Of a DNA stretch of 64,000 nt, positions 1,576 to 36,917 are shown one piece after another. The position numbers and the translations under genes were made by a program. Below the pieces are notes generated by a model. It made no database searches and was not told the origin of the DNA. It was given only the letters and a program-made list of their open reading frames with translations. Each line of letters starts with the position of its first letter. Positions within the stretch are counted from its first letter, which is position 1. The stretch comes from Advenella alkanexedens (GTDB lineage Bacteria; Pseudomonadota; Gammaproteobacteria; Burkholderiales; Burkholderiaceae_B), in NCBI RefSeq assembly GCF_019132845.1, contig NZ_JAHSPR010000008.1:62001-126000 (forward strand). Direction: 5' to 3'.

Positions 1576-1590
1576 CTTATTCTCACTTGC

Positions 1591-11490: not shown

Positions 11491-11530
11491 TCCAGCTTAG
11501 GAGCCAGAAGCCAGAGAAAAAAACAGCCCG

Positions 11531-12589: not shown

Positions 12590-12654
12590 TTATGTTTAGG
12601 GGTTAATACGTTGTGTAACTGCCAGCCATATTACCCCATACAAGCCTTGGTTTC

Positions 12655-13407: not shown

Positions 13408-13885
13408 AGTCGGTCCGGTAATGATCAATAAAAACGGTACTTACTGCTGATAAACAACCGGAATTATCCTCCTATTTTTTGATTCATGTTTTGTTTTTGT
13501 TCGGCTTTTTAAAAATTTACTCCCCAAGTGTTGCAAAACCATCCTTTTGCTTTGCTTGTTTGCCTGAATGGCTCATTTATCATTAATCACTGAATTGCCA
13601 ATTTTGGATGGCTGCCTCTTACACTAAAATTAATAACTGCATTCACAATTAATGATTGTTCCATCAACCATATTTATTAATGAAAATTTTTGTTTTTAAT
13701 AAATAAAAACTTAAATACCCTATGCCAGGCAGCCATTTAAATAATTTTTATAATAAACAGTAGCATATAAATGCTGCCTTATCTATAATTAAGTCCAGTT
13801 TTCTAGCTTGATTAATCGTTTTTCTATTAATCATTCACAAGAAACCAATTATTTATCATAAGTTAATTTTAAAGGCTATAAAAAC
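13408..13885. other. AT-rich non-coding region between nagB and the H-NS gene
   Basis: About 480 bases of strongly AT-rich DNA that should carry both divergent promoters. A heptamer inverted repeat GATTAAT/ATTAATC (13810-13816, 13826-13832) lies just before the H-NS gene. The word AGGCAGC or its complement occurs three times (13608-13617, 13727-13736 and near 13772), the first two as a 10-base inverted pair. No open frame looks real. Curved AT-rich DNA here would fit H-NS autoregulation. Confidence 0.6.
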
Positions 13886-14329
13886 ATGTCTCGCTCTATA
13901 GCATTGGAATCCGTTAAAGAAGAACACAAAGCACTTATTGGTTCTTTTAATGAATTAATCAATAAACACAATGTTTCAACCAGCCAGTTTCTGGAAGCCC
14001 TCGTTTCCAACCTCCCTTCCGCCTCAGACATCGTAGCGGTACAAAACCTGCTGGAAAAACGTGTTAATGAAATCCGTACGGAAGAACTGAACCGTTATAT
14101 TCAGGAAGGCAAAAAAATGGCACAGGCGCTGGGTATAGACCCTGCCATTATTGCTGAAGGTTTAACCGGCAAACAGGCAAAAATCTCAAAACCGGTTAAA
14201 GCCAAATATCGCAGCAAAGAGAATCCGGAAGAAACCTGGTCTGGCCGTGGCAAAAGACCGGCATTTATTGCCAACTATCTGGCCGCCAACCCCAACAACC
14301 AACTGGAAGATTTGTTAATTAACGATTAA
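13886..14329 (+). CDS. H-NS family nucleoid protein
   Basis: A 147-residue histone-like silencer. Residues 1 to about 70 are helical and charged (oligomerisation region), followed by a linker with lysines (KQAKISKPVKAKY). The C-terminal DNA-binding domain reads YRSKENPEETWSGRGKRPAF, containing the GRGKRP hook that enters the minor groove of AT-rich DNA. This is the betaproteobacterial H-NS type and somewhat longer than the common 95-110 residues. A clear terminator follows at 14364-14395. It probably silences AT-rich, horizontally acquired genes such as those nearby. Confidence 0.93.
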   Translation: MSRSIALESVKEEHKALIGSFNELINKHNVSTSQFLEALVSNLPSASDIVAVQNLLEKRVNEIRTEELNRYIQEGKKMAQALGIDPAIIAEGLTGKQAKISKPVKAKYRSKENPEETWSGRGKRPAFIANYLAANPNNQLEDLLIND

Positions 14330-21944: not shown

Positions 21945-22727
21945 ATGAACAATACGCTTTTTAAGGGTCTCCAAATACTGGAAATGCTTGCTTACAGCAG
22001 TCAGCCCATGAGGCTGACTGATATTGCCAACAACCTCAACCTGTTCAAAAGCGGTACCCACCGCTTGCTTCAGGCACTGGTTGACTCAAAATATGTCGTT
22101 CAGGACAAAGAGTCCGGCAAATACAGCACAACCTGTAAACTCATTGAACTTGGCTCTGCCGTACTTCCCCACCTGGCCTTAAAACAGCAGGCAGAAGGCG
22201 TCATGCAACAGTTAATGCGCGACACAGAAGAAAGTGTTCATTTATCCATCCAGGATCAACATGATGTGGTGTATCTGCACAAAGTGGATGGTCCTGCCCC
22301 TATCCCCTTTTACACCCATATCGGTGGGCGGGCACCCCTATACTGTGTGGCCACTGGCAAAGCCCTTCTTGCCTATAAAAACGATTATTTTATTGAAAAA
22401 ATAAAGCAAAACCTGAACCCCAGAACCGACAATACCATTATCAACTCCCAACAACTTGAAATGGAACTTCAGGAAATCAAGGAAAGAGGGTATAGCATTA
22501 ATAAAGGTGAACTAAAAGCAGGGGTTTACGGCGTTGCCGCTCCCATTATCGACAACAAGGGAAATATTATTGCGGCTATCGGACTTTCCGGAGATAGTAA
22601 GCGTTTTACGACCAAAACGATTAACAAGTATGCTGACCTGCTCATGCAAGCTGCCCAACGTATTACAGGCCTGCATAATGGGCATGATCAATCGGCAAAC
22701 CTGCAACGACTTATTCTTTCCTGGTAA
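21945..22727 (+). CDS. IclR family regulator (copy 1 of a paralogous pair)
   Basis: A 260-residue IclR protein with an N-terminal winged helix (residues about 5-60, LTDIANNLNLFKSGTHRLLQ) and a C-terminal GAF-like effector domain (GRAPLYCVATGKALLAY, GYSINKGELKAGVYGVAAPI, IAAIGLSGDSKRF). It is closely similar along its whole length to the IclR protein at 29278-30060, including the start MNNTLxKGxQILEML and the C-terminal NLQRxxxxW. No clear ribosome site precedes the ATG. It converges on the catabolic operon whose last gene, the Bug receptor, ends 80 bases away. Confidence 0.92.
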   Translation: MNNTLFKGLQILEMLAYSSQPMRLTDIANNLNLFKSGTHRLLQALVDSKYVVQDKESGKYSTTCKLIELGSAVLPHLALKQQAEGVMQQLMRDTEESVHLSIQDQHDVVYLHKVDGPAPIPFYTHIGGRAPLYCVATGKALLAYKNDYFIEKIKQNLNPRTDNTIINSQQLEMELQEIKERGYSINKGELKAGVYGVAAPIIDNKGNIIAAIGLSGDSKRFTTKTINKYADLLMQAAQRITGLHNGHDQSANLQRLILSW

Positions 22728-22775
22728 AAACGATATCACAGCAAAACAGGATTGCAGGTTATAAAGTCAAGACAA

Positions 22776-22808
22776 AACAACCGCCATAATGAAGGCGGTT
22801 GTTTTTTT
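22776..22808. terminator. terminator between IclR copy 1 and the Bug operon
   Basis: A 10-base stem, AACAACCGCC with GGCGGTTGTT (22776-22785, 22794-22803), has an 8-base loop and a T-run on the plus strand. The minus strand also reads GTTGTTTTG after the stem, so it can work in both directions. Confidence 0.85.
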
Positions 22809-23778
22809 AATTCAGGCCAATATTGTTTTCCTTGATGATATTTTCATAAAGCAAAATATCATCATTACTCTGACTGATAAAGTCTTTCGTGCCCAAGTAT
22901 GCCGGTATTTGACCAAATTGCAAAAGACGCTCACTCATACCTGGTTTACTCATGACTTTTTGTGCAGCCTTTTCATATTCTTCAATCAAGCTCTGTGGCG
23001 TATTTGCCGGTGCAAAGACACCGAACCAGCTGGACGTTTTCAAGTCAATACCCTGCTGTGAAAATGTGGGAACATTTTTCAATTCAGGCAGTTTTAGTGA
23101 ATCCGGAATGGCCAACGCCTTCAGATTACCATTGACGACATTCGACAGGGCAACGCTATCATATTGATAATCAATTCTTCCTCCTAACAGATCGTTAAGT
23201 GCTTCAATTGAACCTTTATAAGGAATATGTAAAGCGCCTATACCCAGTTTTTTTGCCAGAATCAGCGCCTGTAAATGCGTTAATGTTCCCTGCCCTGCAG
23301 AACCGTAAGTTATTTTACCGGGATTCTGCCTGCCATACTCAACCAAATCCTGCAACGTTGAGCCAGGAAAGTCCTTACGCACAGCCACAATGCCAATTGA
23401 TTCAGATAATTTTGCAATTGGTTCAAAATCCGTAAAAGGGTTGTAATTAACCTGACGCAGGAAAGGTGTAATCGTCATGACACCTGCCGGCGCCAACAAC
23501 AAAGTAGCGCCATCTGCCTTACTGCGAGCTACCTGCTGGGCACCTATGGCACCCGCTGCCCCACCTTTATTCTCAACAACAAAACTCTTTTTCATTTCTT
23601 TGCCCATTTCATCAGCAAAGACACGCGCCAAACTATCCGCATTACCACCGGCAGGATAAGGAACAACCAGCTTCACCGATGAAATATCCGGCAAATCCGC
23701 TGCCATGGATAAGGGTATGACAGCCAAAACACCAAATATACTTAAAGTGTCTATTATTTTTTTTACAGAAATCTTCAT
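22807..23778 (-). CDS. Bug family tripartite tricarboxylate transporter receptor
   Basis: A 323-residue periplasmic binding protein. The signal peptide covers about residues 1-27 (IFGVLAVIPLSMAA). The mature part contains VKLVVPYPAGGNADSLARVFA, VVENKGGAAGAIGAQQVARS and ITYGSAGQGTLTHLQALILA. It is the final gene of the thiol-dioxygenase operon, 37 bases after the crotonase gene. It is the third orphan Bug gene in the window and again has no membrane partner nearby. The ligand is probably the acid degraded by this operon. Confidence 0.92.
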   Translation of the reverse strand: MKISVKKIIDTLSIFGVLAVIPLSMAADLPDISSVKLVVPYPAGGNADSLARVFADEMGKEMKKSFVVENKGGAAGAIGAQQVARSKADGATLLLAPAGVMTITPFLRQVNYNPFTDFEPIAKLSESIGIVAVRKDFPGSTLQDLVEYGRQNPGKITYGSAGQGTLTHLQALILAKKLGIGALHIPYKGSIEALNDLLGGRIDYQYDSVALSNVVNGNLKALAIPDSLKLPELKNVPTFSQQGIDLKTSSWFGVFAPANTPQSLIEEYEKAAQKVMSKPGMSERLLQFGQIPAYLGTKDFISQSNDDILLYENIIKENNIGLN

Positions 23779-23815
23779 TGATTTACCCCACCATTACATC
23801 TATGAATACTATTGC

Positions 23816-24553
23816 TCACTTGCCGCTGTAAACGGGCTCGCGTTTTTCCCTGAAGGCCTGCACACCCTCCTTCTGATCATCACTTTCCCGGACAACGTTC
23901 AATTCCCTAATGGTACGGGCCATTAGTTCAGAAGGGCCCTGCGGCAATACATCACGCGTAATAAAACGCTTGAGGGTCTTTAATACCAAAGGCGAAGCCT
24001 TTGACAGTTTTTGGGCTTTTTCAAGTGCAATTTCCACCTGTTGCCCCAATGGCACCACCTGGTTAACCAAACCAACTTCATAAGCCCGCTGGGCATCCAG
24101 TATCTCACCGCACAAAATCACATCCATGGCCACCTTATGCGGAATACGGGCAGCCAATCCTGCAATCATGCCCCCGGTAAAGCCCAATTTGGCTTCCGGA
24201 TATGAGAAGCGGGTATTGTCAGCAGCAATCGCCAAATCGCACATCATATGCAGGACCATAGAACCGCCTACCACCCAGCCTGCCGTAGCTGCAATAATGG
24301 GTTTTTCAGTTTGTATGCCTACTGTTGGAATGCAACGCCACAACTCAGGCAGGTTCGTCACGTCAGCACCAGCAGAAAATGCTTTTTCCCCTGCACCGGT
24401 GATAACGGCAACACGCTGGTCCGATAAATCAAACTCCTCAAAGCCCTGTTGAAGCGCCAGGGCCGTCTCCTTACAAATGGCATTATGTTTTTCGGGACGA
24501 TTAATCGTAAACAGCGTCACTTTCTCAAACTGCTCGATTTTTACAACACTCAT
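23816..24553 (-). CDS. enoyl-CoA hydratase/isomerase (crotonase) family protein
   Basis: A 245-residue crotonase-fold protein. INRPEKHNAI, the oxyanion-hole segment GEKAFSAGADVTNL and GWVVGGSMVLHMMCDLAIAA are present. The first catalytic Glu position (YPEAKLGF) is kept, but the second (AMDVILCGE) is Asp instead of the usual AME Glu, so hydratase chemistry may differ. I start it at the ATG at 24553 because GGAG lies seven bases upstream, although the frame is open further. It sits 20 bases after the acyl-CoA ligase gene. The substrate is unknown. Confidence 0.9.
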   Translation of the reverse strand: MSVVKIEQFEKVTLFTINRPEKHNAICKETALALQQGFEEFDLSDQRVAVITGAGEKAFSAGADVTNLPELWRCIPTVGIQTEKPIIAATAGWVVGGSMVLHMMCDLAIAADNTRFSYPEAKLGFTGGMIAGLAARIPHKVAMDVILCGEILDAQRAYEVGLVNQVVPLGQQVEIALEKAQKLSKASPLVLKTLKRFITRDVLPQGPSELMARTIRELNVVRESDDQKEGVQAFREKREPVYSGK

Positions 24554-24573
24554 TTTGATCTCCTGAATTATCT

Positions 24574-26679
24574 TTAATTGATTTGTGCCCTGGCATCCAC
24601 TGCCACACACCCGTTACCCTGTTGTTTCACTTTAAGTGGATTAATCTCTATTTCAAAAGGACTGTCTTTAAGACTGCAGGCAAGCAGACTCAAACGATGA
24701 ATGGTCTGTGCCACCGCTTCCACATCCAGAGCAGGCCTGCCGCGATAGATTTTTAACAAAGGGGCTATCTTCAGTTCGTCAAGCGCCTGTTTGGCCGCTT
24801 CCACATGCACGGGCGCTGGCAGCACCAGCGTGTCTTTCAATAGCTCAACCAGAATGCCACCACTGCCTATAATGACCTGCGGACCAAACTGGGCATCATT
24901 TCTGGCTCCCACGATCAACTCCAGTTCCCCTGATTCCATACTCTGCAAGGAGAATCCCTCAATCCGGGCAGACGGTAAAACCTGGTTGATATGACTAACC
25001 ATAGCCGTCAGTCGCTGCTCCAGTTCTTTGGTCGACTGGATATTAAGCAACACCCCGCCCACATCGGATTTATGAACGATCTGGCTGGAAACCACCTTGG
25101 CAACCATAGGAAAACCAATGTCACCCGCTGCCTTTATGGCAGCTGCAATATCGGCAGCAATGATCTCTTTATTCACTGGAATCCCGAACGAAGCCATTAA
25201 CTTCTTGGTTTCAGACTCATTAAGAACGCCTTTTACATGACTAACATCAGGCAAACCATCCGGCAAAACCACCTCTGGTGAAGCGGTAAAATCAGACCAT
25301 GCTTTCCAGCTTTTCAGTGCGGCTACCGCTTCATTGAGAGTATTAGTAAAAGGAATATTATTGGCAACCAAATACTCTCTGGCCGCATTGGCCGCCTGAC
25401 CCGGCAACATCACCGCAATAAACGGTTTCGACGTTTTTTCCGCCCCTGTGACCAGGCTTGTCGTCGTATTCAATACAGAGGGCGCAGTCGTCAGCACAAA
25501 CAAACCGGCATCAACACACGCATCTTTCATGACAATTTCTGCTGTCAACGCTGAAATCCTGTCGGTATCCAGCACATCATGTCTGCGTCCACCCAGATCA
25601 ATCGGATTGAAAGCCTGACCGGGCGTAAACAACTCGGCAAGAGATGTCTTCGTTTGTTCAGCAAACGCTGAAAAAGGGATGTCCTGTTCTGACATCGCAT
25701 CAGCAGTCAGTGCACCACCACCGCCAGAGGTGGTGATAATAGTCGCATTACCCACTTTCTGGCCAGGAAATTTGGCCATGCTCAACGCCAACAGGAACAT
25801 GGCCATCGGGTCGTCCATCAGAATAATATTCTGACTTCTGCAAATGGCTTTTAAGGACTCATAATCACCGGCAAGACTGGCTGTATGGGAAAACGCAGCC
25901 TTGCTGCCCGCTTCCGTTTTCCCGGCCTTGACGGCCAGAATCGGCTTGTTTTTCAAACGAGCCAGTTTTGCCAATTCAATGAAACGCCGGGGTGATTTCA
26001 GGCCCTCAATATAGGCACAAATAATAGAAGTTTCATCATCATCAATCAGCATTTCAAGAAAGTCACACAGTTCAAGATCCGCCTGATTACCAATTGAAAA
26101 ACAGTGACTGAAACCAATACCCTGTGAGTGCGCCTTGTCGAAAAGTGTTCCCATCAGGGCACCACTCTGACTGATAAAGCCAATCGGACTTTTAATGAGG
26201 GCATCCACATTCAGGGCCGGTGAAGAGCACAAAACCAGCTCATTGGCTGGACTGATCAACCCCAGGCAATTGGGGCCAATAAGACGCATATTGTATTGCC
26301 TGGCTATTTCAACGATTTCACGCTCTAAGACAGCTCCCTCCGGACCTGCATCGGAAAACTTGGACGTAATGATAATGGCGCATTTGACCCCCTTCTCAGC
26401 ACATTTTCTAATTTCCTCTTTGACTTTTGCAGTAGGCAATGCCATGACAACCATGTCAGGGGCCTCTGGCGTTGCTGTAATATCAGGAAAAGTTTTTATG
26501 CCAAACAAGGACTCACGCCCCGGATTGATGGGGTAAACAGTTCCCTTGTAACCATGACGGATGAGTGTTTTATAAAGACGTCCGCCAAACTTTGTCTGGT
26601 CTTCGGATGCGCCAATAACGGCCACAGAACGCGGGTTCATAAGTGCCGCCAGACTGGCAGCATTAGTGATAGAAGTCAT
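24574..26679 (-). CDS. NDP-forming acyl-CoA synthetase (acetate--CoA ligase family)
   Basis: A 701-residue fusion of alpha and beta subunits of the ADP-forming acetyl-CoA synthetase type, coupling acyl-CoA and ATP interconversion. A CoA-binding domain comes first (SVAVIGASEDQTKFGGRLYK, residues about 18-37), then a succinyl-CoA ligase-like domain with the phospho-accepting His265 in AAFSHTASLAGDYES. A C-terminal ATP-grasp domain follows (residues about 485-690, GFPMVAKVVSSQIVHKSDVGGV). It lies between two crotonase genes, 14 bases after the upstream one. It may activate the substrate or recover ATP from the product thioester. Confidence 0.92.
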   Translation of the reverse strand: MTSITNAASLAALMNPRSVAVIGASEDQTKFGGRLYKTLIRHGYKGTVYPINPGRESLFGIKTFPDITATPEAPDMVVMALPTAKVKEEIRKCAEKGVKCAIIITSKFSDAGPEGAVLEREIVEIARQYNMRLIGPNCLGLISPANELVLCSSPALNVDALIKSPIGFISQSGALMGTLFDKAHSQGIGFSHCFSIGNQADLELCDFLEMLIDDDETSIICAYIEGLKSPRRFIELAKLARLKNKPILAVKAGKTEAGSKAAFSHTASLAGDYESLKAICRSQNIILMDDPMAMFLLALSMAKFPGQKVGNATIITTSGGGGALTADAMSEQDIPFSAFAEQTKTSLAELFTPGQAFNPIDLGGRRHDVLDTDRISALTAEIVMKDACVDAGLFVLTTAPSVLNTTTSLVTGAEKTSKPFIAVMLPGQAANAAREYLVANNIPFTNTLNEAVAALKSWKAWSDFTASPEVVLPDGLPDVSHVKGVLNESETKKLMASFGIPVNKEIIAADIAAAIKAAGDIGFPMVAKVVSSQIVHKSDVGGVLLNIQSTKELEQRLTAMVSHINQVLPSARIEGFSLQSMESGELELIVGARNDAQFGPQVIIGSGGILVELLKDTLVLPAPVHVEAAKQALDELKIAPLLKIYRGRPALDVEAVAQTIHRLSLLACSLKDSPFEIEINPLKVKQQGNGCVAVDARAQIN

Positions 26680-26693
26680 GTCTCAAATTCCAT

Positions 26694-27425
26694 TTATTGA
26701 TTTATATATTCGCTTATCCGTTGTTTGATACTGCCCGGCATGATGGACAATATTAATGACTGCAAATCGGCCGCCTGATGCCCCTCATCGAGTGCCGTTA
26801 CCCGATAAATCTGTTGCTGGGTATACCGGGACAAACATTGTGCCTGCAGCAGTTCTGTGATCAAACTTTCCTGCTCTTCAAAACGGCATACATGAGTAAC
26901 CAGCCCACTGGACAATGCATCGGCCGCACTTATTTTTCTTCCGGCGTTGATCCAGTCCCTCGCCATTGAAGTCCCTACGCGCGCAGCCAGTCTACGGCTA
27001 CCCAGCACCAGGCCAAATTTTGCCCCCGGAAAAGTAAATGAAGAGGTATCCAGTGCAATGCGGTAGGTACAGGAGGCAAAAATATCTGCACCGGCGCCAA
27101 TGACTTTGCCCTGTCCCAGGACTAAAGTGACAAAAGGTGCCCAGTAAATTTTCTGCAGCAACATTTCAATTTCAATAAATCTGGCCAACAGACTGTCATC
27201 GGATTCCGACTCAAGATTGGACAAATCAAACCCGGTGCAAAAGTGCTTGCCTTCAGCACGTATGAGCAATGCTTTTGTTTTGTTTTCCAGGCATTGATCC
27301 AACACCCCGTTTAATTGCCTGACCAGTTCCCGGGAAAGACAATTCCCTTTATGTGCACGCTTTAAGACAATGGTACTGATATTTTCATGCTGAATTAATT
27401 CAAATTCCTGGCTCATTCTTTGCAT
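26694..27425 (-). CDS. crotonase-fold protein with degenerate catalytic residues
   Basis: A 243-residue enoyl-CoA hydratase/isomerase homologue. HFCTGFDLSNLE forms the CoA/oxyanion segment, and QGKVIGAGADIFASCTYRIA and FPGAKFGLVLGSRRLAARVG follow. The usual first catalytic Glu (PEx) is replaced by Gly in FPGAKFG, and the second region reads MARDW. It may therefore be an isomerase, hydrolase or non-catalytic member. It starts 4 bases after the dioxygenase stop. The first ATG is at 27425; an alternative ATG three codons on (27416) has a more usual AGG spacing. Confidence 0.85.
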   Translation of the reverse strand: MQRMSQEFELIQHENISTIVLKRAHKGNCLSRELVRQLNGVLDQCLENKTKALLIRAEGKHFCTGFDLSNLESESDDSLLARFIEIEMLLQKIYWAPFVTLVLGQGKVIGAGADIFASCTYRIALDTSSFTFPGAKFGLVLGSRRLAARVGTSMARDWINAGRKISAADALSSGLVTHVCRFEEQESLITELLQAQCLSRYTQQQIYRVTALDEGHQAADLQSLILSIMPGSIKQRISEYINQ

Positions 27426-27429
27426 TGCC

Positions 27430-28011
27430 TCATTTAACCCATAGATTGGCTGTCACGTTGGATGAATATCCGGAAATGAACGATTTCCTTTCCGGGGTTC
27501 CCGGATAAAAAACATGCCGCTGGATTTTTCCTATATTGCCACCATATAAATGAATACTGATGGATGTCTGGTCCTGAAACGCATTACTGACCTGATGAAT
27601 ATCCCCAATTGAAGGCGACACACAAGCAACATCTCCCTGAGACAGGGTGGTAACCTTGCCAGTCTCCTGAAGAATATTCTCCTCATTGAAGGCAAAGTGT
27701 TTTTCGGTTTCTGCCCCCCTGAGCATACCAATTACTCCCCAGACCGTATGATCATGAACCGGTGTGTTCTGCCCGCCTGCCCAGACAAAACTGACCAGTG
27801 AAAAACGATCCAATGGATCTCCATAGAGCAAGTACTGCTGGTAATATTCGGGATGCGGTCTTGCAAAGGTTTCATCAAGCCAATCATCCTGACTGACAAG
27901 ATCGCGCATGATTTCTTTTGCCTGTAACAAAATTTCAGGCTCTTTCAATTCTTTTTTTTCCACCAGCCTTATCAATCGCTGTACTGCTTCCAATAATCGT
28001 GCCTGACTCAT
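27430..28011 (-). CDS. cupin thiol dioxygenase, 3-mercaptopropionate dioxygenase type
   Basis: A 193-residue cysteine-dioxygenase-family cupin. The three iron ligands are His86 and His88 in TPVHDHTVWG and His139 in GDIHQVSN; Tyr156 (IHLYGG) matches the active-site Tyr. The segment YYQQYLLYGD places Gln59 where cysteine dioxygenases have the carboxylate-binding Arg60. A Gln there marks 3-mercaptopropionate dioxygenases, which oxidise the thiol to 3-sulfinopropionate with O2. It is 1 base after the CoA-transferase gene and 4 bases before a crotonase gene, so it is firmly inside a CoA-thioester operon. Mercaptosuccinate or cysteine remain possible substrates. Confidence 0.88.
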   Translation of the reverse strand: MSQARLLEAVQRLIRLVEKKELKEPEILLQAKEIMRDLVSQDDWLDETFARPHPEYYQQYLLYGDPLDRFSLVSFVWAGGQNTPVHDHTVWGVIGMLRGAETEKHFAFNEENILQETGKVTTLSQGDVACVSPSIGDIHQVSNAFQDQTSISIHLYGGNIGKIQRHVFYPGTPERKSFISGYSSNVTANLWVK

Positions 28012-28012
28012 A

Positions 28013-29173
28013 CTAAGCCTCCTCTTTCAATAAGCCACTCACAAAACGGTGATTATCCGCCCCCTTTTCAGGAGGAGGCAAGCGGACAGGTAAATTATTA
28101 TTATCAATACGAATAGGTGAAATAAATGTTTTGGTTTGAGCCCCATTCGGCAACGTTATCTCCTGCACCCATCCCATGTGCTGTACCTGGGGATCACTCA
28201 AGGCAGTCTCGTAATCATTAATCCGACTATGCGGTACAGCTGCCTCCTTGAAGACACGGATCCAATAGTCCGTATCCTGAGTAACAAACTTTTCTTCCAG
28301 CAAGACCTTGAGTATCTTCTGATTTTTTGCCCTGTCCAGGGTGGTGGCAAAACGCGGATCATTGAACAGTTCCGGCAGATCGGTTACATCACACACAGAC
28401 TTCCATAACTTCTGATTGCCGGCAGCGATTACAAAATAACCATCCCGCGACTTGAAAGCCTCATAAGGTGCATTTCGTGGATGAGCCGCACCCAATTTAA
28501 TGGGATTAATACCCGTACCGAAAAATTCGCTGGTTTGCAAAGCGGCAATACCCAATGTGCAACCAAGCATGGAAATATCGATCCGACTGCCACCCAGGCC
28601 GTTTTTCACCTTCATCAGCGCTGAACTGATGGAAAAAGCCGCATATAAGCCTGAAGCAAAATCAGAAATTGGAACACCGCACTTTACCGGACCCCCATCG
28701 GCTTCTCCGGTGACACTCATCACACCCGAAGCCGCCTGTATCGTGACATCAAATCCCCCCTCATTTGCCCGAGGGCCATCTTGGCCAAATGCCGAGATAG
28801 AGCAATAAACCAGATCCGGATGCTCTTTCTTGAAAGACTCCGCCCCCAAATTCAATCTATCCATCACACCGGGACGGTTATTCTCTACCAGAACATCCGC
28901 AGACAATACCAGCTTTCTCGCCAGTTGCTGATCAGCCTCATTTTTCAAGTCCAGCACAAGAGAGTGTTTATTACGGTTCAGTGAGGCAAAATTTTCGCTA
29001 AACCCTTCATTGATAGGCGGCCATTGCCGTAGTGTATCGCCGGCGGGTGGTTCTATTTTAATAACCTCGGCGCCCATATCAGCCAACAGCATGCCACAAA
29101 AAGGCCCCGCCGCAACACTGCAAAACTCAATCACCTTGACACCGGAAAGAGGAAGATTAGGGTAAATAGGCAT
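28013..29173 (-). CDS. CaiB/BaiF family III CoA-transferase
   Basis: A 386-residue CoA-transferase. The N-terminus has VKVIEFCSVAAGPFCGMLLADMGAEVIKIEPPAGD. The catalytic Asp is expected in GGFDVTIQAASGVMSVTG, preceded by SISAFGQDGPRA. I use the ATG at 29173 (MPIYPNLPLSG) with AGGA six bases upstream; the longer frame begins with Cys-rich sequence unlike the family. It is the first gene of the operon that includes the thiol dioxygenase. By analogy with the family III transferase that activates 3-sulfinopropionate in Advenella mimigardefordensis, it could make a sulfinyl-acyl-CoA; this is inference. Confidence 0.92.
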   Translation of the reverse strand: MPIYPNLPLSGVKVIEFCSVAAGPFCGMLLADMGAEVIKIEPPAGDTLRQWPPINEGFSENFASLNRNKHSLVLDLKNEADQQLARKLVLSADVLVENNRPGVMDRLNLGAESFKKEHPDLVYCSISAFGQDGPRANEGGFDVTIQAASGVMSVTGEADGGPVKCGVPISDFASGLYAAFSISSALMKVKNGLGGSRIDISMLGCTLGIAALQTSEFFGTGINPIKLGAAHPRNAPYEAFKSRDGYFVIAAGNQKLWKSVCDVTDLPELFNDPRFATTLDRAKNQKILKVLLEEKFVTQDTDYWIRVFKEAAVPHSRINDYETALSDPQVQHMGWVQEITLPNGAQTKTFISPIRIDNNNLPVRLPPPEKGADNHRFVSGLLKEEA

Positions 29174-29277: not shown

Positions 29278-30060
29278 ATGAACAACACACTGATCAAAGG
29301 CATACAAATCCTAGAGATGCTATGCCACAGCGACCGACCGTTACGCTTGACTGATATCGCCAATGAATTGGGACTGATGAAAAGCAACGTGCACCGTTTA
29401 CTCCATGCCCTCGTTGCACAAAATTACATTATTAAAGATGAAAGAACCGGCGAATACTCTGCCTCCATCAAGCTGTGGGAGCTTGGCTCAGCCGTACTTT
29501 CCAAACTGGATTTACGTAAATATTCAGAAAAATGGATGGACAGTCTGACCCAACTCACTTCAGAAAGCTCACACCTTTCCGTGATAGATAATATGCAGGT
29601 CGTCTATGTCCACAAAATAGACAGTTCAAGCCCTATCAGGGCCTATACGCAAATCGGTGGCAGAGTGCCCTTGTATTGTGTGGCAACCGGAAAAATCATG
29701 CTGGCCTATCAATCAGATGTATTCATCGAGCGGGTTTCCAAAAACCTGGAACAACACACACCCAACACCATTACGAACCCCAAAAAACTCCTGTTGGAAG
29801 TGGAGAAAATTCGCAAACAGGGATATGCCGTCAATAAAGGTGAATGGCGTGAAGGCGTTTATGGCGTCGCCACACCCATCTCCGATGGTTCTGGTAATGT
29901 CATTGCCGCCATCGGACTGTCCGGACCGGCCAACCGGTTCAAACCCCAGAAAATAAAAGAATTTGCCCAATTGCTGACACAAGCTTCTTCGGCCATCACA
30001 TTTGCCTTGGGAGGGGGCAACGGCCATTTGAACTTACAAAGAATCACACACCTGTGGTAA
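29278..30060 (+). CDS. IclR family regulator (copy 2 of a paralogous pair)
   Basis: A 260-residue IclR regulator, paralogue of the one at 21945-22727. The winged helix contains LTDIANELGLMKSNVHRLLHAL, and the effector domain GGRVPLYCVATGKIMLAYQS and GYAVNKGEWREGVYGVATPI. AAGG touches the ATG with no spacing, so the transcript may have a very short leader; the start is supported by the identical beginning of the paralogue. It is divergent from the CoA-transferase/dioxygenase operon and upstream of the aminotransferase/ABC operon, both with the same conserved box, so it may control both. Confidence 0.92.
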   Translation: MNNTLIKGIQILEMLCHSDRPLRLTDIANELGLMKSNVHRLLHALVAQNYIIKDERTGEYSASIKLWELGSAVLSKLDLRKYSEKWMDSLTQLTSESSHLSVIDNMQVVYVHKIDSSSPIRAYTQIGGRVPLYCVATGKIMLAYQSDVFIERVSKNLEQHTPNTITNPKKLLLEVEKIRKQGYAVNKGEWREGVYGVATPISDGSGNVIAAIGLSGPANRFKPQKIKEFAQLLTQASSAITFALGGGNGHLNLQRITHLW

Positions 30061-30262: not shown

Positions 30263-31645
30263 ATGAGCAGTGAAACCTTAAGTTCCGCCACTGATGTCAA
30301 AAATCTTGTACACCCTTACACCAATTTGGGCGACCACCTTAACAAAGGTCCCATGATTATAGAGCGCGGGGAAGGCGTTTATATTTATGACAATCATGGC
30401 AAACGTTATCTTGAAGGCATGTCCGGCCTATGGTGCACCTCACTGGGTTTTTCTGAAGAGCGCCTGGTCAATGCAGCGATTGAGCAATTCAAAAAACTGC
30501 CTTATTACCATTTATTCAACTCCCGTTCCAATACACCGGCTATCGAGCTTTCTGAAAAACTGCTGGAAATAGCCCCTAAAAGTCTGGCTAAAGTCCTGTA
30601 TGCCAATTCGGGCTCGGAAGCCAATGATGCAGCAGTAAAACTGGTCTGGTTTTACCATAACGCCCTTGGCAAACCCGCGAAAAAGAAAATCATTTCCCGC
30701 TTGCGGGGCTATCATGGTGTCACAGTTGCCTCTGGCAGCCTGACTGGATTGCCTGCCAATCATCAATTCTTTGACCTCCCCATCGATCGCATTCTTCACA
30801 CTGACTGCCCCAGTTACTATCATGGTGCCAATCCAGGTGAGTCAGAAGAGGCATTCACACAACGCCTGATCAACAATCTCGAGCAGCTTATTCTCAAAGA
30901 AGGCCCTGATACCGTTGGGGCATTTATTGCCGAGCCCGTCATGGGAGCCGGTGGGGTTATTGTGCCACCCAAGGGATACTTCGAGGGGGTACAAAAAATC
31001 CTGAAAAAATATAACATCCTGTTCATTGTTGATGAGGTTATTTGCGGCTTTGGCCGGACAGGCAACATGTTCGGCAGTGATACCTTCAATCTGCAGCCGG
31101 ATATCATGTCAGTGGCAAAAGCCCTGTCTTCTTCCTATCTGCCCATTTCTGCCACGCTGATTAGCCAGCCCATCTATGAAAAGATAGCGGAACAAAGTGA
31201 TGAGGTCGGTGTTTTTGCACATGGCGTCACGTACTCTGGCCATCCGATTTGTGCCGCCGTCGCATTGGAAACACTGAAAATTTATCAGGATAAAAATATC
31301 GTTTCCCATGTGCAGGAGGTAGCGCCTTATTTCCTGAGTAAGCTGCACAGTCTGAGCGCGCATCCGTTAGTAGGTGAAACACGTGGTATTGGCTTAATTG
31401 GTGCCATTGAATTAACACAGGACAAGGCCAGCAAAAAACCTTTTGACCCCTCAGTGAAAATTGAAAAACTGGTTCAGGAAAACGCGGCCAAACACGGGGT
31501 TCTGGTACGTGGCATCCGTAATGCCATTGCCCTTTGCCCTCCACTCATCATTACAAAAGAACAAATTGACGAACTGTTTAACGGTGTTGAAGCAGGCCTT
31601 AATGCAGCGCTGGAAACCGTTGAAGCGTCCAAAGCATCTGCTTAA
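30263..31645 (+). CDS. class III pyridoxal-phosphate aminotransferase (omega-amino acid type)
   Basis: A 460-residue class III aminotransferase, which typically moves the omega-amino group of beta-alanine, taurine, GABA or amines to pyruvate or a keto acid. Motifs are YANSGSEANDAAVKLVWFY (phosphate cup), GYHGVTVASGSLTG, FIVDEVICGFGRTG (cofactor-ring Asp) and SVAKALSSSYLPISA with the Schiff-base Lys. GGGAGGA is an excellent ribosome site before the ATG. It heads an operon with a family 5 binding-protein ABC transporter, so its amino substrate is probably what that transporter imports. Confidence 0.93.
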   Translation: MSSETLSSATDVKNLVHPYTNLGDHLNKGPMIIERGEGVYIYDNHGKRYLEGMSGLWCTSLGFSEERLVNAAIEQFKKLPYYHLFNSRSNTPAIELSEKLLEIAPKSLAKVLYANSGSEANDAAVKLVWFYHNALGKPAKKKIISRLRGYHGVTVASGSLTGLPANHQFFDLPIDRILHTDCPSYYHGANPGESEEAFTQRLINNLEQLILKEGPDTVGAFIAEPVMGAGGVIVPPKGYFEGVQKILKKYNILFIVDEVICGFGRTGNMFGSDTFNLQPDIMSVAKALSSSYLPISATLISQPIYEKIAEQSDEVGVFAHGVTYSGHPICAAVALETLKIYQDKNIVSHVQEVAPYFLSKLHSLSAHPLVGETRGIGLIGAIELTQDKASKKPFDPSVKIEKLVQENAAKHGVLVRGIRNAIALCPPLIITKEQIDELFNGVEAGLNAALETVEASKASA

Positions 31646-31683
31646 GAAGCATGATCCCAACATGATCCAAAATAAACCAAAAG

Positions 31684-31737
31684 AAAAATATAAATTTTAA
31701 TCATATATGAATTCATTGAATTAAAAATTATATTTTT
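31684..31737 (+). promoter_or_regulatory. AT-rich hairpin between the aminotransferase and binding-protein genes
   Basis: Two 17-base arms (31684-31700 and 31721-31737) pair with a single mismatch around a 20-base loop that contains the palindrome TCATATATGA. The hairpin ends just before the AAAGGAAAG ribosome site of the binding-protein gene. It could protect mRNA and raise binding-protein yield, or act as a weak attenuator. Confidence 0.5.
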
Positions 31738-31749
31738 AAAGGAAAGAAA

Positions 31750-33351
31750 ATGAATAAACTTAAAATCAAGGGAATTTTCAAATCCCTGGTCATCAGCTTT
31801 TCACTGGGATTTGCCTTGCCAGCCTTAAGTGCAACACCCAAAGATACCATCATCATGGCGAGAAAAATTGATGACATTAAAGTCTTGGATCCCGCCGAAG
31901 TATTTGAATGGGGCAGCGGAGAAATCATCAACAATCTCTATACCCGTCTGGTCACGCTCGATCCCAATGACTTTACCAAATTAGTCGGCGGCGTTGCTGA
32001 AAGCTGGAAAGTTTCGGATGATGGCCTGACCTATGAATTTAAAATCCGTCCAGGCCTGAAATTTCATTCCGGCAATCCGGTTACCGCAAAAGATGCCGAA
32101 TTTTCACTCAGACGTGTTGTCCACCTCAGCAAGACACCGGTCTTTATTTTCAACCAGCTTGGCTGGAAACCGGATACCGTTGACGATATGGTCAAGGCCG
32201 TTGATGATTCAACTTTGGTCCTGAAAATTGCCCAACCCTATGCCAACTCGCTGGTTATCAATATCCTTTCAGCCGGCGTCGCCTCTATTGTTGATAGTGT
32301 GGAAGTATCCAAACACATCAAAGACAATGACTACGGCTACAACTGGCTCAAAACCAATTCAGCCGGTTCCGGTCCCTATAAACTGGTTGTATGGAAACCC
32401 AAGGATGCCGTCGTTTTGGAAGCCAACCCCGACTTTTATCTGGGCGCACCCAAATCGAAACGATTCATTATTCGCCATGTTGCAGAGTCTTCTGCACAAA
32501 AACTGTTGCTCACGGCGGGTGATATTGATATTGCCAGGGATTTAAGCGCGGACCAAATCAAGCAGGCCCGCTCTGATGATAAAGTTAAAGTTGCCACTAC
32601 CGAGAAACTGAGCACCTATTATCTGGGGCTGAATTCGGCCAAAAACGAAATTCTGGCAAAACCAAAAGTATGGGAAGCTTTGCGCTGGCTGATTGACTAC
32701 CAAACCATGGCCAACACCTTTCTGGATGGTTACTACAAAGTACACCAATCTTTCCTGACCGGTCAGGACGGTTTGCAGGAAACCCCCTACAAACTGGATG
32801 TGGAAAAAGGCAAGGCCTTATTGGCTGAAGCCGGTTATCCAGATGGTTTCAGCATCACCATGGATTTGTACAATACCGCTCCACAAACAGATATCGCCCA
32901 ATCGATTCAATCCACTTTTGCCCAAGCAGGCATCAAACTTAACCTGACACAAAGTGATAAAGCACAGGGTTTGACCAAGTATCGTTCACGCGGACACGAC
33001 ATCATGCTGGCTGCATGGTCTCCCGACTATCTTGATGCGCACTCGACGGCAGAGTTTTTTGTAAGAAACACCGACAACTCGGACAACTCCAAAAACAAGA
33101 CTGCAGCATGGCGTAATGGCTGGGAAATCCCCGATTTATCCGTCCTGACTGAAAAAGCGATGATGGAGCAGGATGCTGAAAAACGCCGCAACATTTATCT
33201 TGAACAGCAAAGAGTTGTCCAGCAAAATTCTCCCATGATCATGATGTTTCAACTGATTGAAAGTTCAGTTTTACAAAAAAATGTGAATGATTTCATTTCA
33301 GGACCCGGCTTTGATACGGCCCTCTACTGGAAAATCGAAAAAACCCAATAA
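31750..33351 (+). CDS. ABC transporter substrate-binding protein, family 5 (peptide/opine type)
   Basis: A 533-residue extracytoplasmic binding protein. The signal peptide covers about residues 1-26 (SLVISFSLGFALPALSA). Family 5 features are LDPAEVFEWGSGEIINNLYTRL, VAESWKVSDDGLTYEFKIRPGLKFHSGNPVTAKD, SAGSGPYKL and EALRWLIDYQTMANTFLDG. Such proteins bind peptides, opines, glutathione or similar amino compounds. AAAGGAAAG precedes the ATG. It belongs with the two permease and two ATPase genes that follow, and the linked aminotransferase suggests an amino acid-like ligand. Confidence 0.93.
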   Translation: MNKLKIKGIFKSLVISFSLGFALPALSATPKDTIIMARKIDDIKVLDPAEVFEWGSGEIINNLYTRLVTLDPNDFTKLVGGVAESWKVSDDGLTYEFKIRPGLKFHSGNPVTAKDAEFSLRRVVHLSKTPVFIFNQLGWKPDTVDDMVKAVDDSTLVLKIAQPYANSLVINILSAGVASIVDSVEVSKHIKDNDYGYNWLKTNSAGSGPYKLVVWKPKDAVVLEANPDFYLGAPKSKRFIIRHVAESSAQKLLLTAGDIDIARDLSADQIKQARSDDKVKVATTEKLSTYYLGLNSAKNEILAKPKVWEALRWLIDYQTMANTFLDGYYKVHQSFLTGQDGLQETPYKLDVEKGKALLAEAGYPDGFSITMDLYNTAPQTDIAQSIQSTFAQAGIKLNLTQSDKAQGLTKYRSRGHDIMLAAWSPDYLDAHSTAEFFVRNTDNSDNSKNKTAAWRNGWEIPDLSVLTEKAMMEQDAEKRRNIYLEQQRVVQQNSPMIMMFQLIESSVLQKNVNDFISGPGFDTALYWKIEKTQ

Positions 33352-33382
33352 ACCAACCAATTAAATTGACAGGAATTGCATT

Positions 33383-34432
33383 TTGTCTAACACACTCAAT
33401 TTAAAACGCATTGGTACATACTTCAGGATAGCAGGCGACCAGACACTCACTTTACTGATTACGGTGCTTGGCCTGCTACTCATCACCTTCCTTATCGGAC
33501 GAGTGATCCCGATTGACCCGGTTTTAGCGATCACAGGAGACCGGGTCAGTCCTGAAGTTTATGCAAAAGTCAGGGATGAATTGGGGTTAGATCTGCCACT
33601 TTGGCAGCAATTCCTCAATTACCTAGGCAATGTCCTGCACGGCGACTTTGGCACCTCGGTACTGACGTCACAAACGGTCCTGCACGACATTGCCATTTAT
33701 TTTCCTGCCACCATTGAGCTGGCAGTAGCAGGCACCTTTATTGGTGTCATTTTCGGTATCCCGATGGGTATTGTTTCAGCCGTTTATAAAAACAGCTGGC
33801 TGGATCAGGTCATCCGCGTCATATCCCTGGTCGGCTATTCAATCCCCATTTTCTGGCTAGGCCTGGTTGGCCTGCTTATTTTTTATGTCAAACTGGGTTG
33901 GGTTGCCGGCGTTGGACGCCTGGACGTTGCCTATGAGTACACCATTGAACGGGAAACCGGCTTTATCATGTTGGATGCCATCATACACGGACAGTGGGAT
34001 ATTCTTGCCAATTTCCTGTCACACCTGATCCTGCCCGCCAGTCTGCTCGGTTATCTCTCCATGGCATATATTGCACGCATGACCCGCTCTTTCATGCTGG
34101 AACAGTTAAGCCAGGAATATATTACAACCGCGCGCGTTAAAGGCTTAAGCGAGTTTAGGGTCATTCATCATGCCTTCAAAAATACATTGACGCAATTAGT
34201 GACCGTCGTGTCACTGACATTTGCACACCTGCTTGAGGGAGCTGTCCTGACAGAGACCGTTTTTGCCTGGCCCGGTATTGGTCTTTATATTACCAACTCT
34301 TTATTTTCTGCTGACATGAACGCGGTACTGGGAGGAACGACGGTTATCGGCATTTGTTTTGTTGTCATCAATATATCGTCTGATGCACTTGGACGATTTT
34401 TTGATCCACGCTTTAACAGGGGCTCAACATGA
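33383..34432 (+). CDS. ABC transporter permease, DppB type
   Basis: A 349-residue inner-membrane permease of the DppB/OppB family, somewhat longer than usual. The beginning of the family domain reads LITFLIGRVIPIDPVLAITGDRVSPEVYAKVRDELGLDLPL. The coupling-helix motif EYITTARVKGLSEFRVIHHAFKNTL contacts the ATPases. The start is a TTG (33383) with AGGA nine bases upstream; no ATG is available near it. The stop overlaps the next permease start by 4 bases. Confidence 0.93.
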   Translation: MSNTLNLKRIGTYFRIAGDQTLTLLITVLGLLLITFLIGRVIPIDPVLAITGDRVSPEVYAKVRDELGLDLPLWQQFLNYLGNVLHGDFGTSVLTSQTVLHDIAIYFPATIELAVAGTFIGVIFGIPMGIVSAVYKNSWLDQVIRVISLVGYSIPIFWLGLVGLLIFYVKLGWVAGVGRLDVAYEYTIERETGFIMLDAIIHGQWDILANFLSHLILPASLLGYLSMAYIARMTRSFMLEQLSQEYITTARVKGLSEFRVIHHAFKNTLTQLVTVVSLTFAHLLEGAVLTETVFAWPGIGLYITNSLFSADMNAVLGGTTVIGICFVVINISSDALGRFFDPRFNRGST

Positions 34433-35316
34433 ATTCATGGCTCTTATCCGAAACACCCGCTTCCCGCTTTCAGGCCACATGTGGGCAACTCTATGTGATT
34501 TTCCTGTCATTCATCCGCAATCCACTTGCTGTCATTGGGCTGCTGATTGTTTTGACCCTGGTTATATGTGCATTCGCCGCCCCCTACATTGCCACTCATG
34601 ATCCTTATACGCAGTCGCTTAACGATCGTCTGCTGGCGCCCAGTAGCGAACACTGGCTGGGTACGGACCATCTGGGACGGGATATCTGGAGCAGAATTGT
34701 ATATGGTTCTCGTTCAACCCTAACAGTTATTGTTACCGTGGCCATTATTGTTGGCCCTATCGGTTTACTCGTCGGAATTCTGGCCGGTTTTTCAGGTGGC
34801 CTGATTGACCGTATCCTGATGCGCATAACGGATATTTTTCTGGCCTTTCCCCGTCTTATCCTTGCTCTTGCCTTTACCGCCGTGCTGGAACCCGGTCTGT
34901 ACAGTGCCATTATTGCCATTGCCATTACCTCTTGGCCAGCTTATGCCAGGCTTGCACGTGCCGAAACCATGATTCACAAGAACGCCGACTTCATCCAGGC
35001 CATCAAGCTGCAGGGGGCCTCTACCCTGCGCATTCTGTACGGTCATATCGCGCCGCTTTGCTTACCTTCCATCATTGTCCGTCTTACACTGGATATGGCC
35101 GGCATTATTCTTATTGCCGCCGGTCTGGGTTTTCTTGGACTGGGCGCCCAACCTCCATTGGCCGAATGGGGCAGCATGATTGCCAGCGGCAGGGATTATC
35201 TGCTTGATCACTGGTGGATAGCCACGATACCGGGTATCGCAATATGTATTGTCAGTCTGGGCTTCAACATTCTGGGCGACGGTTTAAGGGATGTCCTTGA
35301 TCCCAAGACGAGGTAG
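34429..35316 (+). CDS. ABC transporter permease, DppC type
   Basis: A 295-residue DppC/OppC-type permease. The N-terminal segment LAVIGLLIVLTLVICAFAAP is the first membrane helix, followed by SSEHWLGTDHLGRDIWSRIVYGSRSTL, the family hallmark. The EAA-like loop reads HKNADFIQAIKLQGASTLRI. It pairs with the DppB-type subunit in the membrane. ATGA overlap with the preceding gene, and 3 bases to the ATPase gene that follows. Confidence 0.95.
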   Translation: MNSWLLSETPASRFQATCGQLYVIFLSFIRNPLAVIGLLIVLTLVICAFAAPYIATHDPYTQSLNDRLLAPSSEHWLGTDHLGRDIWSRIVYGSRSTLTVIVTVAIIVGPIGLLVGILAGFSGGLIDRILMRITDIFLAFPRLILALAFTAVLEPGLYSAIIAIAITSWPAYARLARAETMIHKNADFIQAIKLQGASTLRILYGHIAPLCLPSIIVRLTLDMAGIILIAAGLGFLGLGAQPPLAEWGSMIASGRDYLLDHWWIATIPGIAICIVSLGFNILGDGLRDVLDPKTR

Positions 35317-35319
35317 AAC

Positions 35320-36159
35320 ATGCAAAAAAAAATTTTAACCATCAAAAACCTTAATGTGACTTTTTCTACCCCAAAAGGTCCCTTCCACGCTGTCAAGGAC
35401 ATCAATTTCAGCATGGGAGTGGAAAAAGTCGGTGTTGTGGGAGAATCAGGGTCAGGCAAATCCATTACCAGCAAATCAGTCCTTGGTTTATTAAGAAAAC
35501 CCACGCGTGTTGAAGCGGATGAAATATCATTTCATGACATCGATTTGCGCAATCTGGACAACAAACAATGGCGCAAAATCCGAGGCCGAAAAATATCCAT
35601 GATCATGCAAGACCCGCATTACTCACTTAACCCGATCATGAGCGTGGGCAAACAGATTATGGAGTCTTACCTGACTCATCATAAAGTCAGTAAAGCCGAA
35701 GCCAAGGCCAGAACGCTGGAAATGCTGGAATTGGTCAGAATCAATAACCCCGAACGTGTCTTTGATGCTTATCCACATGAAATCAGTGGTGGCATGGGAC
35801 AAAGGATCATGATTGCCATGATGCTGATACCTCAGCCGGAGTTATTGATTGCCGATGAACCGACCTCTGCCCTGGATGTATCGGTACAGAACCAGATTCT
35901 GTCACTCATCAATGAAATGGTCACCCGGCGAAATATGGGATTGATTTTCATCAGTCACGACCTGAACCTGGTTTCCCGATTTTGCGACCGGGTGCTTATC
36001 ATGTATCGCGGGCGCATTGTAGACGAATGCCTGGCTTCTGAATTGCATGCATCAAAACACCCTTATACACAAGGTCTTCTTAACTGCGTACCCAGCCTTG
36101 ATCATAAGAAGCCACGACTTGAAGTGCTTAATCGCGAAAAATTGAGGAGTTTTGAATGA
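35320..36159 (+). CDS. ABC transporter ATP-binding protein, DppD type
   Basis: A 279-residue ATPase. Walker A is GESGSGKSIT, the signature EISGGMGQRIMIAMML, and Walker B LLIADEPTSALD followed by the H-loop FISHDLNL. In the signature motif Met replaces the Gln of the common LSGGQxQR form. The C-terminal region typical of peptide-type ATPases is short (HPYTQGLLNCVPSL) and lacks the Cys cluster of DppD. It overlaps the next ATPase gene by 4 bases. Confidence 0.93.
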   Translation: MQKKILTIKNLNVTFSTPKGPFHAVKDINFSMGVEKVGVVGESGSGKSITSKSVLGLLRKPTRVEADEISFHDIDLRNLDNKQWRKIRGRKISMIMQDPHYSLNPIMSVGKQIMESYLTHHKVSKAEAKARTLEMLELVRINNPERVFDAYPHEISGGMGQRIMIAMMLIPQPELLIADEPTSALDVSVQNQILSLINEMVTRRNMGLIFISHDLNLVSRFCDRVLIMYRGRIVDECLASELHASKHPYTQGLLNCVPSLDHKKPRLEVLNREKLRSFE

Positions 36160-36917
36160 GTCAGGTAATGATTAATGTGTCAAACCTGAATGTGTCTTTT
36201 GGTGCCAATCAGGTATTGCATAATATTAATTTCAAGGTTGCTGCCGGTGAATGTTACGGTCTGGTCGGAGAGTCCGGTTCAGGAAAATCCACCATCCTGA
36301 AAGCCATTATGGGACTGAACAAGCACACGGGAACAATTGAAATTGAAAACACCCCATTAGTCAATCATAAACGTGACAAAGCCTTTTATCGTAAAGTCCA
36401 AATGGTATTCCAGGATCCTTATGGATCCATCCACCCCAAACACTCCATCGACCGGATTTTATCTGAACCGCTATACATTCAAAAATTCACGGATATTGAA
36501 GCCAGAGTATGTAAAAGCCTTGAAGAAGTCGGCCTGAACCGGAGCTTTCGCTACCGTTTTCCTCATCAATTGTCAGGAGGGCAACGCCAGCGTGTTGCTA
36601 TCGCCCGGGCCTTAATTACCGAACCGCAAATTCTGGTCATGGATGAACCAACTTCAGCCCTTGATGTGTCCGTGCAGTCAGAAATATTGAACCTGCTTGA
36701 CGATTTGCGCAAGGAACGCAATCTTACTTATATTCTGGTCAGTCATAATCTGGCGGTCATTGCCCATATGTGTGACAAGCTGGCAGTCATGAACCGGGGT
36801 GTCATCATAGAAGAAATGACGCCCGACGTACTATTTACCAAATCAGCCAAAGCGCCCTATTCAAGGGAATTGATCCAGGCCAGCCATGGTTATGAAGCCG
36901 TTGAAAAGGCAGCCTGA
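36156..36917 (+). CDS. ABC transporter ATP-binding protein, DppF type
   Basis: A 253-residue ATPase, shorter than standard DppF (about 330) because the C-terminal extension is reduced. Walker A is GESGSGKSTI, the Q-loop lies in MVFQDPYGSIHP, the signature is LSGGQRQRVAIARAL, Walker B LVMDEPTSALD and the H-loop LVSHNLAV. It forms the heterodimeric motor with the preceding gene product. It is the last gene of the operon, followed by a strong terminator at 36971-37034. Confidence 0.93.
   Translation: MSQVMINVSNLNVSFGANQVLHNINFKVAAGECYGLVGESGSGKSTILKAIMGLNKHTGTIEIENTPLVNHKRDKAFYRKVQMVFQDPYGSIHPKHSIDRILSEPLYIQKFTDIEARVCKSLEEVGLNRSFRYRFPHQLSGGQRQRVAIARALITEPQILVMDEPTSALDVSVQSEILNLLDDLRKERNLTYILVSHNLAVIAHMCDKLAVMNRGVIIEEMTPDVLFTKSAKAPYSRELIQASHGYEAVEKAA

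Follow-up and report, generated by a model that had tools for sequence, protein, structure and literature searches.

A Gln-type thiol dioxygenase gene between CoA-transferase and crotonase genes in Advenella alkanexedens: a recurrent gene trio and a candidate route for 3-mercaptopropionate sulfur

No thiol is more abundant than 3-mercaptopropionate (3MP) in freshwater and seawater, according to the accessible portion of PMC12947264, where 3MP dioxygenase (3MDO) is given as the only enzyme reported for its breakdown. The route described for Advenella mimigardefordensis, as far as the available text of PMC5373536 goes, consists of Mdo, SucCD and the desulfinase Acd, with a family III CoA-transferase gene adjoining acd. 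The thiodipropionate (TDP) cluster of Variovorax paradoxus TBEA6 comprises, in the excerpted account of PMC6370202, mdo, act, acdA, ech-20, ech-30, the crotonase gene VPARA_05510 and caiD, and a cluster of mdo, CoA-transferase and crotonase genes is as a general kind already known from this organism. We examined a 64,000-nucleotide stretch of Advenella alkanexedens DNA (contig NZ_JAHSPR010000008.1 of assembly GCF_019132845.1, positions 62,001 to 126,000; hereafter the window), within which six minus-strand genes form one operon. In reading order these encode a CoA-transferase (COAT), a thiol dioxygenase (MDO), a crotonase (CRO1), an acyl-CoA ligase (ACL), a second crotonase (CRO2) and a Bug/TctC-type receptor (Table 1).

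The operon resembles the A. mimigardefordensis system in that both come from the same genus, set a Gln-type dioxygenase gene by a family III CoA-transferase gene and include TctC receptors; it differs in having no Acd orthologue and in the presence of crotonases and an ADP-forming ligase, while COAT is only 32% identical to the Acd-linked transferase, and IclR genes stand beside the window operon where A. mimigardefordensis has LysR and Xre. The cluster of V. paradoxus TBEA6, like the operon, groups mdo with genes for a CoA-transferase and several crotonases, but that strain has acdA and its Ech-20 and Ech-30 act on the way to 3MP, a comparison made by description only and from the available part of PMC6370202. 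Among the matches listed from the open-access PMC literature, no paper was found on an Acd-less COAT-MDO-CRO1 trio or on the CRO1 subfamily. The gaps along the operon were 1, 4, 14, 20 and 37 bases (from COAT-MDO to CRO2-receptor), and the Pfam domains along it were CoA_transf_3, CDO_I, ECH_1, CoA-binding with Succ_CoA_lig and ATP-grasp_5, ECH_1 and TctC. The gene order and positions, the spacings of 1 base (COAT-MDO) and 4 bases (MDO-CRO1), and the family guesses of an initial annotation made from the letters alone were all reproduced, the last by Pfam and NCBIfam domain calls upon mechanically called open reading frames (ORFs).

MDO matched the solved 3MP dioxygenases (PDB 3uss/4tlf, 4qma and 6xb9) with E values of 1e-55 to 1e-56; the best cysteine dioxygenase reached only 6e-7, and mercaptosuccinate dioxygenase 3e-6. 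Gln59, His86, His88, His139, the Ser152-His154-Tyr156 triad and Arg165 were invariant in 16 of 16 aligned sequences, and Gln59, which sits where cysteine dioxygenase has Arg, was kept in 153 of 154 homologues. All the sequence marks of a Gln-type 3MP dioxygenase were found, i.e., the Gln, the three His iron ligands, the Ser-His-Tyr triad and the carboxylate-binding Arg, so that MDO is by sequence a Gln-type (3MP) thiol dioxygenase; the initial reading of three retained His and of Gln59 in place of Arg was borne out by the PDB matches and the alignments. In the available part of PMC8050391, the Gln of the Azotobacter 3MDO structure makes no significant contact with the substrate analogue while Arg168, the counterpart of Arg165, binds its carboxylate, and for this reason Arg165 is more telling for MDO than Gln59. 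Judged by family and active site, MDO would oxidise 3MP to 3-sulfinopropionate (3SP). In a single scan of named genomes (best 80 of 563 relatives), the closest MDO proteins were those of A. faeciporci (L113, 96% identity) and A. mandrilli (L114, 83%); here and below L numbers denote sequence stretches of relatives and G numbers genomes. Two distinct MDO genes lie in tandem at L270:8691-10309, and a contig in a record named Solitalea longa (L156) carries an MDO 54% identical to that of the window; Solitalea is a genus of the Bacteroidota, and contamination or transfer is possible.

COAT matched PF02515 with 386.5 bits over the entire profile (1-366 of 366), scored 297 bits against NCBIfam SucGlutTfsCaiB (under the cut-off of 750), and had PDB matches to 9br7/4ed9; its homologues beside MDO or CRO1 in other genomes were mostly 54-72% identical. 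As the operon's family III CoA-transferase, it is the candidate for CoA activation of 3SP. CRO1 was assigned by fold and family to the crotonases, and Asp114 (108 of 108 rows) and Gly134 (106 of 108) occupy the positions of the two catalytic Glu of enoyl-CoA hydratase, which we take to be Glu144 and Glu164 of the rat enzyme. With this Glu pair not present, CRO1 is not a canonical enoyl-CoA hydratase. It retains one Asp that never varies and Arg residues that vary little or not at all, a pattern that fits, without proving, a substrate with a distal acid group, and its sequence places it in a distinct and uncharacterised crotonase branch. The nearest solved protein in the fold comparison, with agreement from Foldseek, was 3isa, a structural-genomics entry from Bordetella parapertussis titled as a putative enoyl-CoA hydratase/isomerase with no function assigned in the title. 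Naming the CRO1 reaction from its fold was given up, as the rows under 3isa (hydratases, isomerases, PksH, VirD, LnmF, RpfF and others) were near-equal in Z and singled out no reaction; nor were sub-branches with context-specific active sites seen on the CRO1 tree and alignment (108 rows). CRO2 has Val at the first catalytic place and Glu at the second (122, in the numbering of the ORF begun six bases before ATG 24553).

The trio of COAT, MDO and CRO1 recurs widely. Our order sample held 399 genomes chosen for neither MDO nor CRO1, with MDO called at E 1e-20, CRO1 by a profile of 22 CRO1 sequences at E 1e-40 or better, and Acd at 1e-85; this sample and the family sample described below each cover one order or one family, and all trees are quick trees. 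Matches to a CRO1 query (300 order genomes) and to an MDO query (399 order genomes) were found side by side. The CRO1 subfamily was present in 49 genomes, one copy each (weakest E 2e-66), MDO in 74, and both in 43 (Fisher p 5e-31, uncorrected for kinship); for these 43 the pair was on one contig in 29 (within 300 bases in 23, within 10 kb in 28) and on different contigs in 14. COAT stands beside MDO and CRO1 in records named Comamonas, Polaromonas, Cupriavidus and Lacisediminimonas and in one alphaproteobacterial bin, and its recurrence in many genera shows that the trio did not come together by chance. The initial claim of a Gln-type dioxygenase inside a CoA-thioester operon is thereby backed by the sequence, the active-site residues, the operon structure and a conserved, repeatedly assembled trio.

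The complete order COAT-MDO-CRO1-ACL-CRO2-TctC was found in L114, L119, L212, L223 and L307, although in L119 (Polaromonas sp. P2-4, 11399-14309) the ACL and CRO2 frames are in pieces, either decayed or mis-sequenced. In L113, the closest relative (best 80 of 563), there is no TctC and 130 bases separate CRO2 from the IclR gene a, and in L173 the TctC gene is placed between CRO1 and ACL; because relatives vary in these genes, ACL, CRO2 and the Bug receptor are an optional extension of the three-gene core. The loci used for the CRO1 tree and the MDO-neighbourhood counts were partly selected for MDO or CRO1, 29 of the 107 CRO1 loci coming from MDO-selected named records. Among these 107, a COAT at least 50% identical lay within 2 kb of CRO1 in 87 and an MDO within 10 kb in 71. 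MDO adjacency required 10 changes on the CRO1 tree, at least 7 of them being forced by well-supported branches, so the link between CRO1 and MDO formed or broke repeatedly. COAT-CRO1 has a glutaconate-CoA-transferase-like pair with an AMP ligase attached to it in 25 of 108 CRO1 rows, and 15 of these 25 have MDO within 10 kb; the closest PDB entries to the pair (e.g., L273:8451-13406) are 5mzw/5n00, presumably the AibAB family with a decarboxylase role. A PIG3-type quinone oxidoreductase gene is near CRO1 in 10 of 107 loci and directly follows it in L233 (7839-8834), whereas no CRO1 locus was counted with the sulfite exporter TauE inside 9 kb. Five stretches (L143:10537-11484, L162, L295, L308 and L309) have COAT-CRO1-MDO followed by a PrdB-like (D-proline-reductase) protein, which scored under the TIGR04483 cut-off and in its L143 copy had no Pfam match.

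MDO genes fell into two main kinds of neighbourhood. For 153 distinct genes, from a set weighted towards likeness to the window protein and towards CRO1 matches so that shares are not frequencies, a four-domain rhodanese was adjacent in 43, CRO1 was within 700 bases in 45 and within 10 kb in another 26, and the rest had Acd (1), a CRO2-like crotonase cluster (3), COAT alone (4) or none of these (31). Rhodanese and CRO1 occurred together at 0 of 153 MDO loci and at no distance within the fetched stretches. The MDO-rhodanese pair, exemplified by L268:9436-11675, belongs to the lineage of the solved Pseudomonas, Azotobacter and Ralstonia 3MDOs and shares the dioxygenase family and active site of the window MDO; it has a four-domain rhodanese downstream, where the window has COAT and CRO1 instead. 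Only 4 changes of label between rhodanese-linked and CRO1-linked are required on the tree of the 154 MDOs. The three solved 3MDOs fell within a 25-row set (support 98) made up of 21 rhodanese-linked rows, the three themselves and one unlabelled row, with 22 more rhodanese-linked rows outside it; the window MDO lies outside this set, and the A. mimigardefordensis Mdo likewise. A split in active-site specificity between the two kinds was rejected, as seven positions clearly differ in composition and none is an iron ligand, Gln59, a triad residue or Arg165. A second MDO cluster, seen in A. mimigardefordensis and relatives (L197:4572-12313, L193, L200 and L245), encodes an enolase-superfamily enzyme, an AhpD-like protein, TctC, an AMP ligase, a CRO2-like crotonase, MDO and IclR, to which L197 adds the acrylyl-CoA reductase AcuI above the NCBIfam cut-off, and this content suggests cleavage of a thioether or 3-substituted propionate to acryloyl-CoA and 3MP.

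The known desulfinase was looked for throughout the host. The Acd of A. mimigardefordensis (L196, genome G445) is 100% identical to PDB 5af7 over 401 residues. The host genome (99.5% complete) has 22 PF00441 acyl-CoA dehydrogenase matches, the best of them 33% identical to Acd over a long match, and a direct search for Acd gave no match at 1e-80; the acyl-CoA dehydrogenase within the window (409-1575) is 29% identical. The initial observation that the locus has no acyl-CoA-dehydrogenase-type desulfinase was therefore correct and extends to the host genome, which has no 5af7-family desulfinase as the mark of an Acd-type 3MP pathway. In the order sample Acd was matched in 3 of 399 genomes (69%, 61% and 44% identity), two of them with MDO (one being that at 44%) and one with CRO1, i.e., in 2 of the 74 MDO genomes. 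Because Acd is this rare and not in the host, another fate of 3SP is needed in most MDO carriers.

We propose that the operon would serve catabolism of 3MP or a close thiol acid. The Bug receptor may help uptake, MDO would convert the thiol to the sulfinic acid 3SP, and COAT, a succinyl-CoA-type CoA-transferase, would put CoA on 3SP as an analogue of succinate. CRO1 would then act on an acyl-CoA with a distal acid group, C-S cleavage being expected here and forming the weakest step, while ACL and CRO2 may be an optional module that activates and then cleaves or hydrates a second acid, e.g., a thioether precursor of 3MP, or the C3 skeleton. That MDO makes 3SP, COAT its CoA ester, and CRO1 acts upon the ester is a reading to which we give a rough probability of 0.4 from the sequence evidence. 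It is doubtful that CRO1 has, beyond this, a new crotonase function of C-S cleavage of 3-sulfinopropionyl-CoA or a near analogue, and forms with COAT and MDO the main route for 3MP sulfur in many Acd-less Burkholderiales-type bacteria. The host has a type II citrate/2-methylcitrate synthase above cut-off, which would serve propionyl-CoA, and the A. mimigardefordensis order CoA-transferase-Acd-Mdo begins and ends with genes of the same kinds; both support the proposed route.

Several observations weigh against it. Beta-elimination from a sulfinate is chemically unfavourable, the active-site residues of CRO1 are identical whatever the gene context, 6 of the 49 CRO1 genomes have no MDO, and the host gave no match to sulfite oxidoreductases of the PF00174 type, SoeABC not having been searched for. 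In the family sample (the host and 66 genomes hand-picked for variety, 67 in all) Acd was present in 7, CRO1 in 55 and MDO in 66, and 7 of 7 Acd-bearing genomes also carry CRO1, A. mimigardefordensis included. Acd has an MDO no more than 1.4 kb away in G445, G474, G477 and G485, where COAT-CRO1 is elsewhere without MDO; the A. mimigardefordensis CRO1 (L273) stands with IclR, COAT, the glutaconate-CoA-transferase-like pair and the AMP ligase, with no MDO in the 20 kb read. In the available text of PMC5373536 the DTDP route of this CRO1-bearing organism nonetheless runs via Acd. A further genome, G501, has an MDO with Acd 4 kb off plus COAT-MDO-CRO1 on a separate contig. Since Acd genomes of the family have CRO1 too, CRO1 is not simply a stand-in for Acd, and a simple swap of one for the other, which predicts mutual exclusion, was rejected in that form (1 of 3 Acd genomes in the order sample also had CRO1) and kept at a lowered rank. 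The initial annotation, in which crotonases took the place of the desulfinase, thus stands in part: the dioxygenase and the CoA operon are supported and CRO1 does recur as a partner of MDO, but CRO2 does not, and a simple replacement of the desulfinase is weakened by the Acd genomes that carry CRO1.

The crotonases could instead act upstream of MDO, with COAT or ACL activating a thioether or 3-substituted propionate, a crotonase freeing 3MP by elimination or by hydration and cleavage, and MDO removing the toxic thiol as 3SP, which is then excreted or handled by unlinked enzymes; we consider this possible, though tentatively. In V. paradoxus TBEA6, according to the part of the published account available, ech-20 and ech-30 mutants did not grow on TDP and grew on 3SP, and Ech-20 was stabilised by TDP-CoA, but these crotonases were likened to CRO1 and CRO2 by description only. 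The coexistence of CRO1 with Acd would suit this order of events, as would the AMP ligase, CRO2-like crotonase and AcuI of the second MDO cluster in A. mimigardefordensis and the AcuI genes in the same stretch as COAT-CRO1 in L245, L282, L287, L289 and L290. The host, however, has no AcuI, and CRO1 genomes are not enriched in it: it was found in 27 of 49 of them versus 22 of 31 MDO genomes without CRO1 (E 1e-100), or in 21 of 49 versus 18 of 31 above the curated cut-off; on the same grounds acryloyl-CoA, considered as a general product from the AcuI genes beside MDO at some loci, was rejected. Acting upstream, the crotonases would also leave 3SP without a fate in most carriers.

Two other accounts bear on what the CoA genes are for. 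COAT-CRO1 may constitute a pathway for a dicarboxylyl-CoA (or its sulfinate counterpart) whose tie to 3MP is only partial, MDO having been recruited because 3MP or 3SP forms as a side product or acts as an inhibitor. The likeness of COAT to succinate-glutarate CoA-transferase agrees with this, as do the 25 rows with the glutaconate-CoA-transferase-like pair and AMP ligase (15 of them with MDO), the CRO1 genomes without MDO, and the closer attendance upon CRO1 of COAT (87 of 107 loci within 2 kb) than of MDO (71 of 107 within 10 kb); we nevertheless hold it unlikely, given the strong association of CRO1 and MDO (43 of 49 CRO1 genomes in a sample chosen for neither) and the 23 pairs within 300 bases. 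It is quite improbable that the window MDO serves another thiol acid, e.g., a 3-mercaptopropionate bearing a substituent, which would have a CoA route to itself while some genomes keep a second, separate route for 3MP via Acd: the two sets of G501 would fit two substrates and the window protein is left out of the well-supported set that holds the solved 3MDOs, but the conserved active-site positions, 3MP-binding residues included, are the same in CRO1-linked and rhodanese-linked MDOs.

Table 1. Coordinates within the window of the operon genes and flanking features
Feature	Position	Strand	Basis
COAT, family III CoA-transferase resembling succinate-glutarate CoA-transferase, 386 aa, opening the operon	28013..29173	-	PF02515, NCBIfam, PDB matches
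MDO, Gln-type thiol dioxygenase (3-mercaptopropionate dioxygenase type), 193 aa	27430..28011	-	Pfam, PDB matches, alignment
CRO1, small divergent crotonase (243 aa) that recurs with COAT and MDO	26694..27425	-	ECH_1
ACL, ADP(NDP)-forming acyl-CoA ligase, 701 aa, optional extension	24574..26679	-	Pfam
CRO2, CaiD/EchA19-like crotonase, 245 aa, optional extension	23816..24553	-	ECH_1; ATG at 24553
Extracytoplasmic receptor of Bug/TctC type, 323 aa, closing the operon	22807..23778	-	Pfam TctC
IclR regulator b, divergent from COAT	29278..30060	+	Pfam
IclR regulator a, convergent with the operon end	21945..22727	+	Pfam
Terminator-like stem-loop of 12 pairs, lying where IclR a and the operon converge	22774..22805	+	stem-loop scan

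The stem-loop scan of the region gave 11 terminator-like sites versus 9.5 expected from shuffles, so that the terminator call is weak alone. The two IclR regulators are 54% identical to each other, and an IclR gene was within 5 kb of CRO1 in 46 of 107 CRO1 loci. Downstream of IclR b (30263-36917) are genes for a class III aminotransferase, a family 5 solute-binding protein and an ABC permease (33383-34432), after which three more ORFs reach 36917; the aminotransferase and binding-protein genes also adjoin the operon in L113 and L114, a 59%-identical aminotransferase is present in L223, and these genes may be part of the operon's metabolism. At 409-3968 of the window, genes for an acyl-CoA dehydrogenase, MmgE/PrpD and TctC lie consecutively.

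The sampled 3MDO genes split into two neighbourhood types, one rhodanese-linked and the other CoA-linked. What follows 3SP is known only for organisms with Acd, and Acd is rare among MDO genomes; CRO1, as it travels with MDO and a CoA-transferase, is a named and testable candidate for the missing step, and it gives a function to seek in the orphan solved structure 3isa. The COAT-MDO-CRO1 trio may show the next fate of the oxidised sulfur acid.

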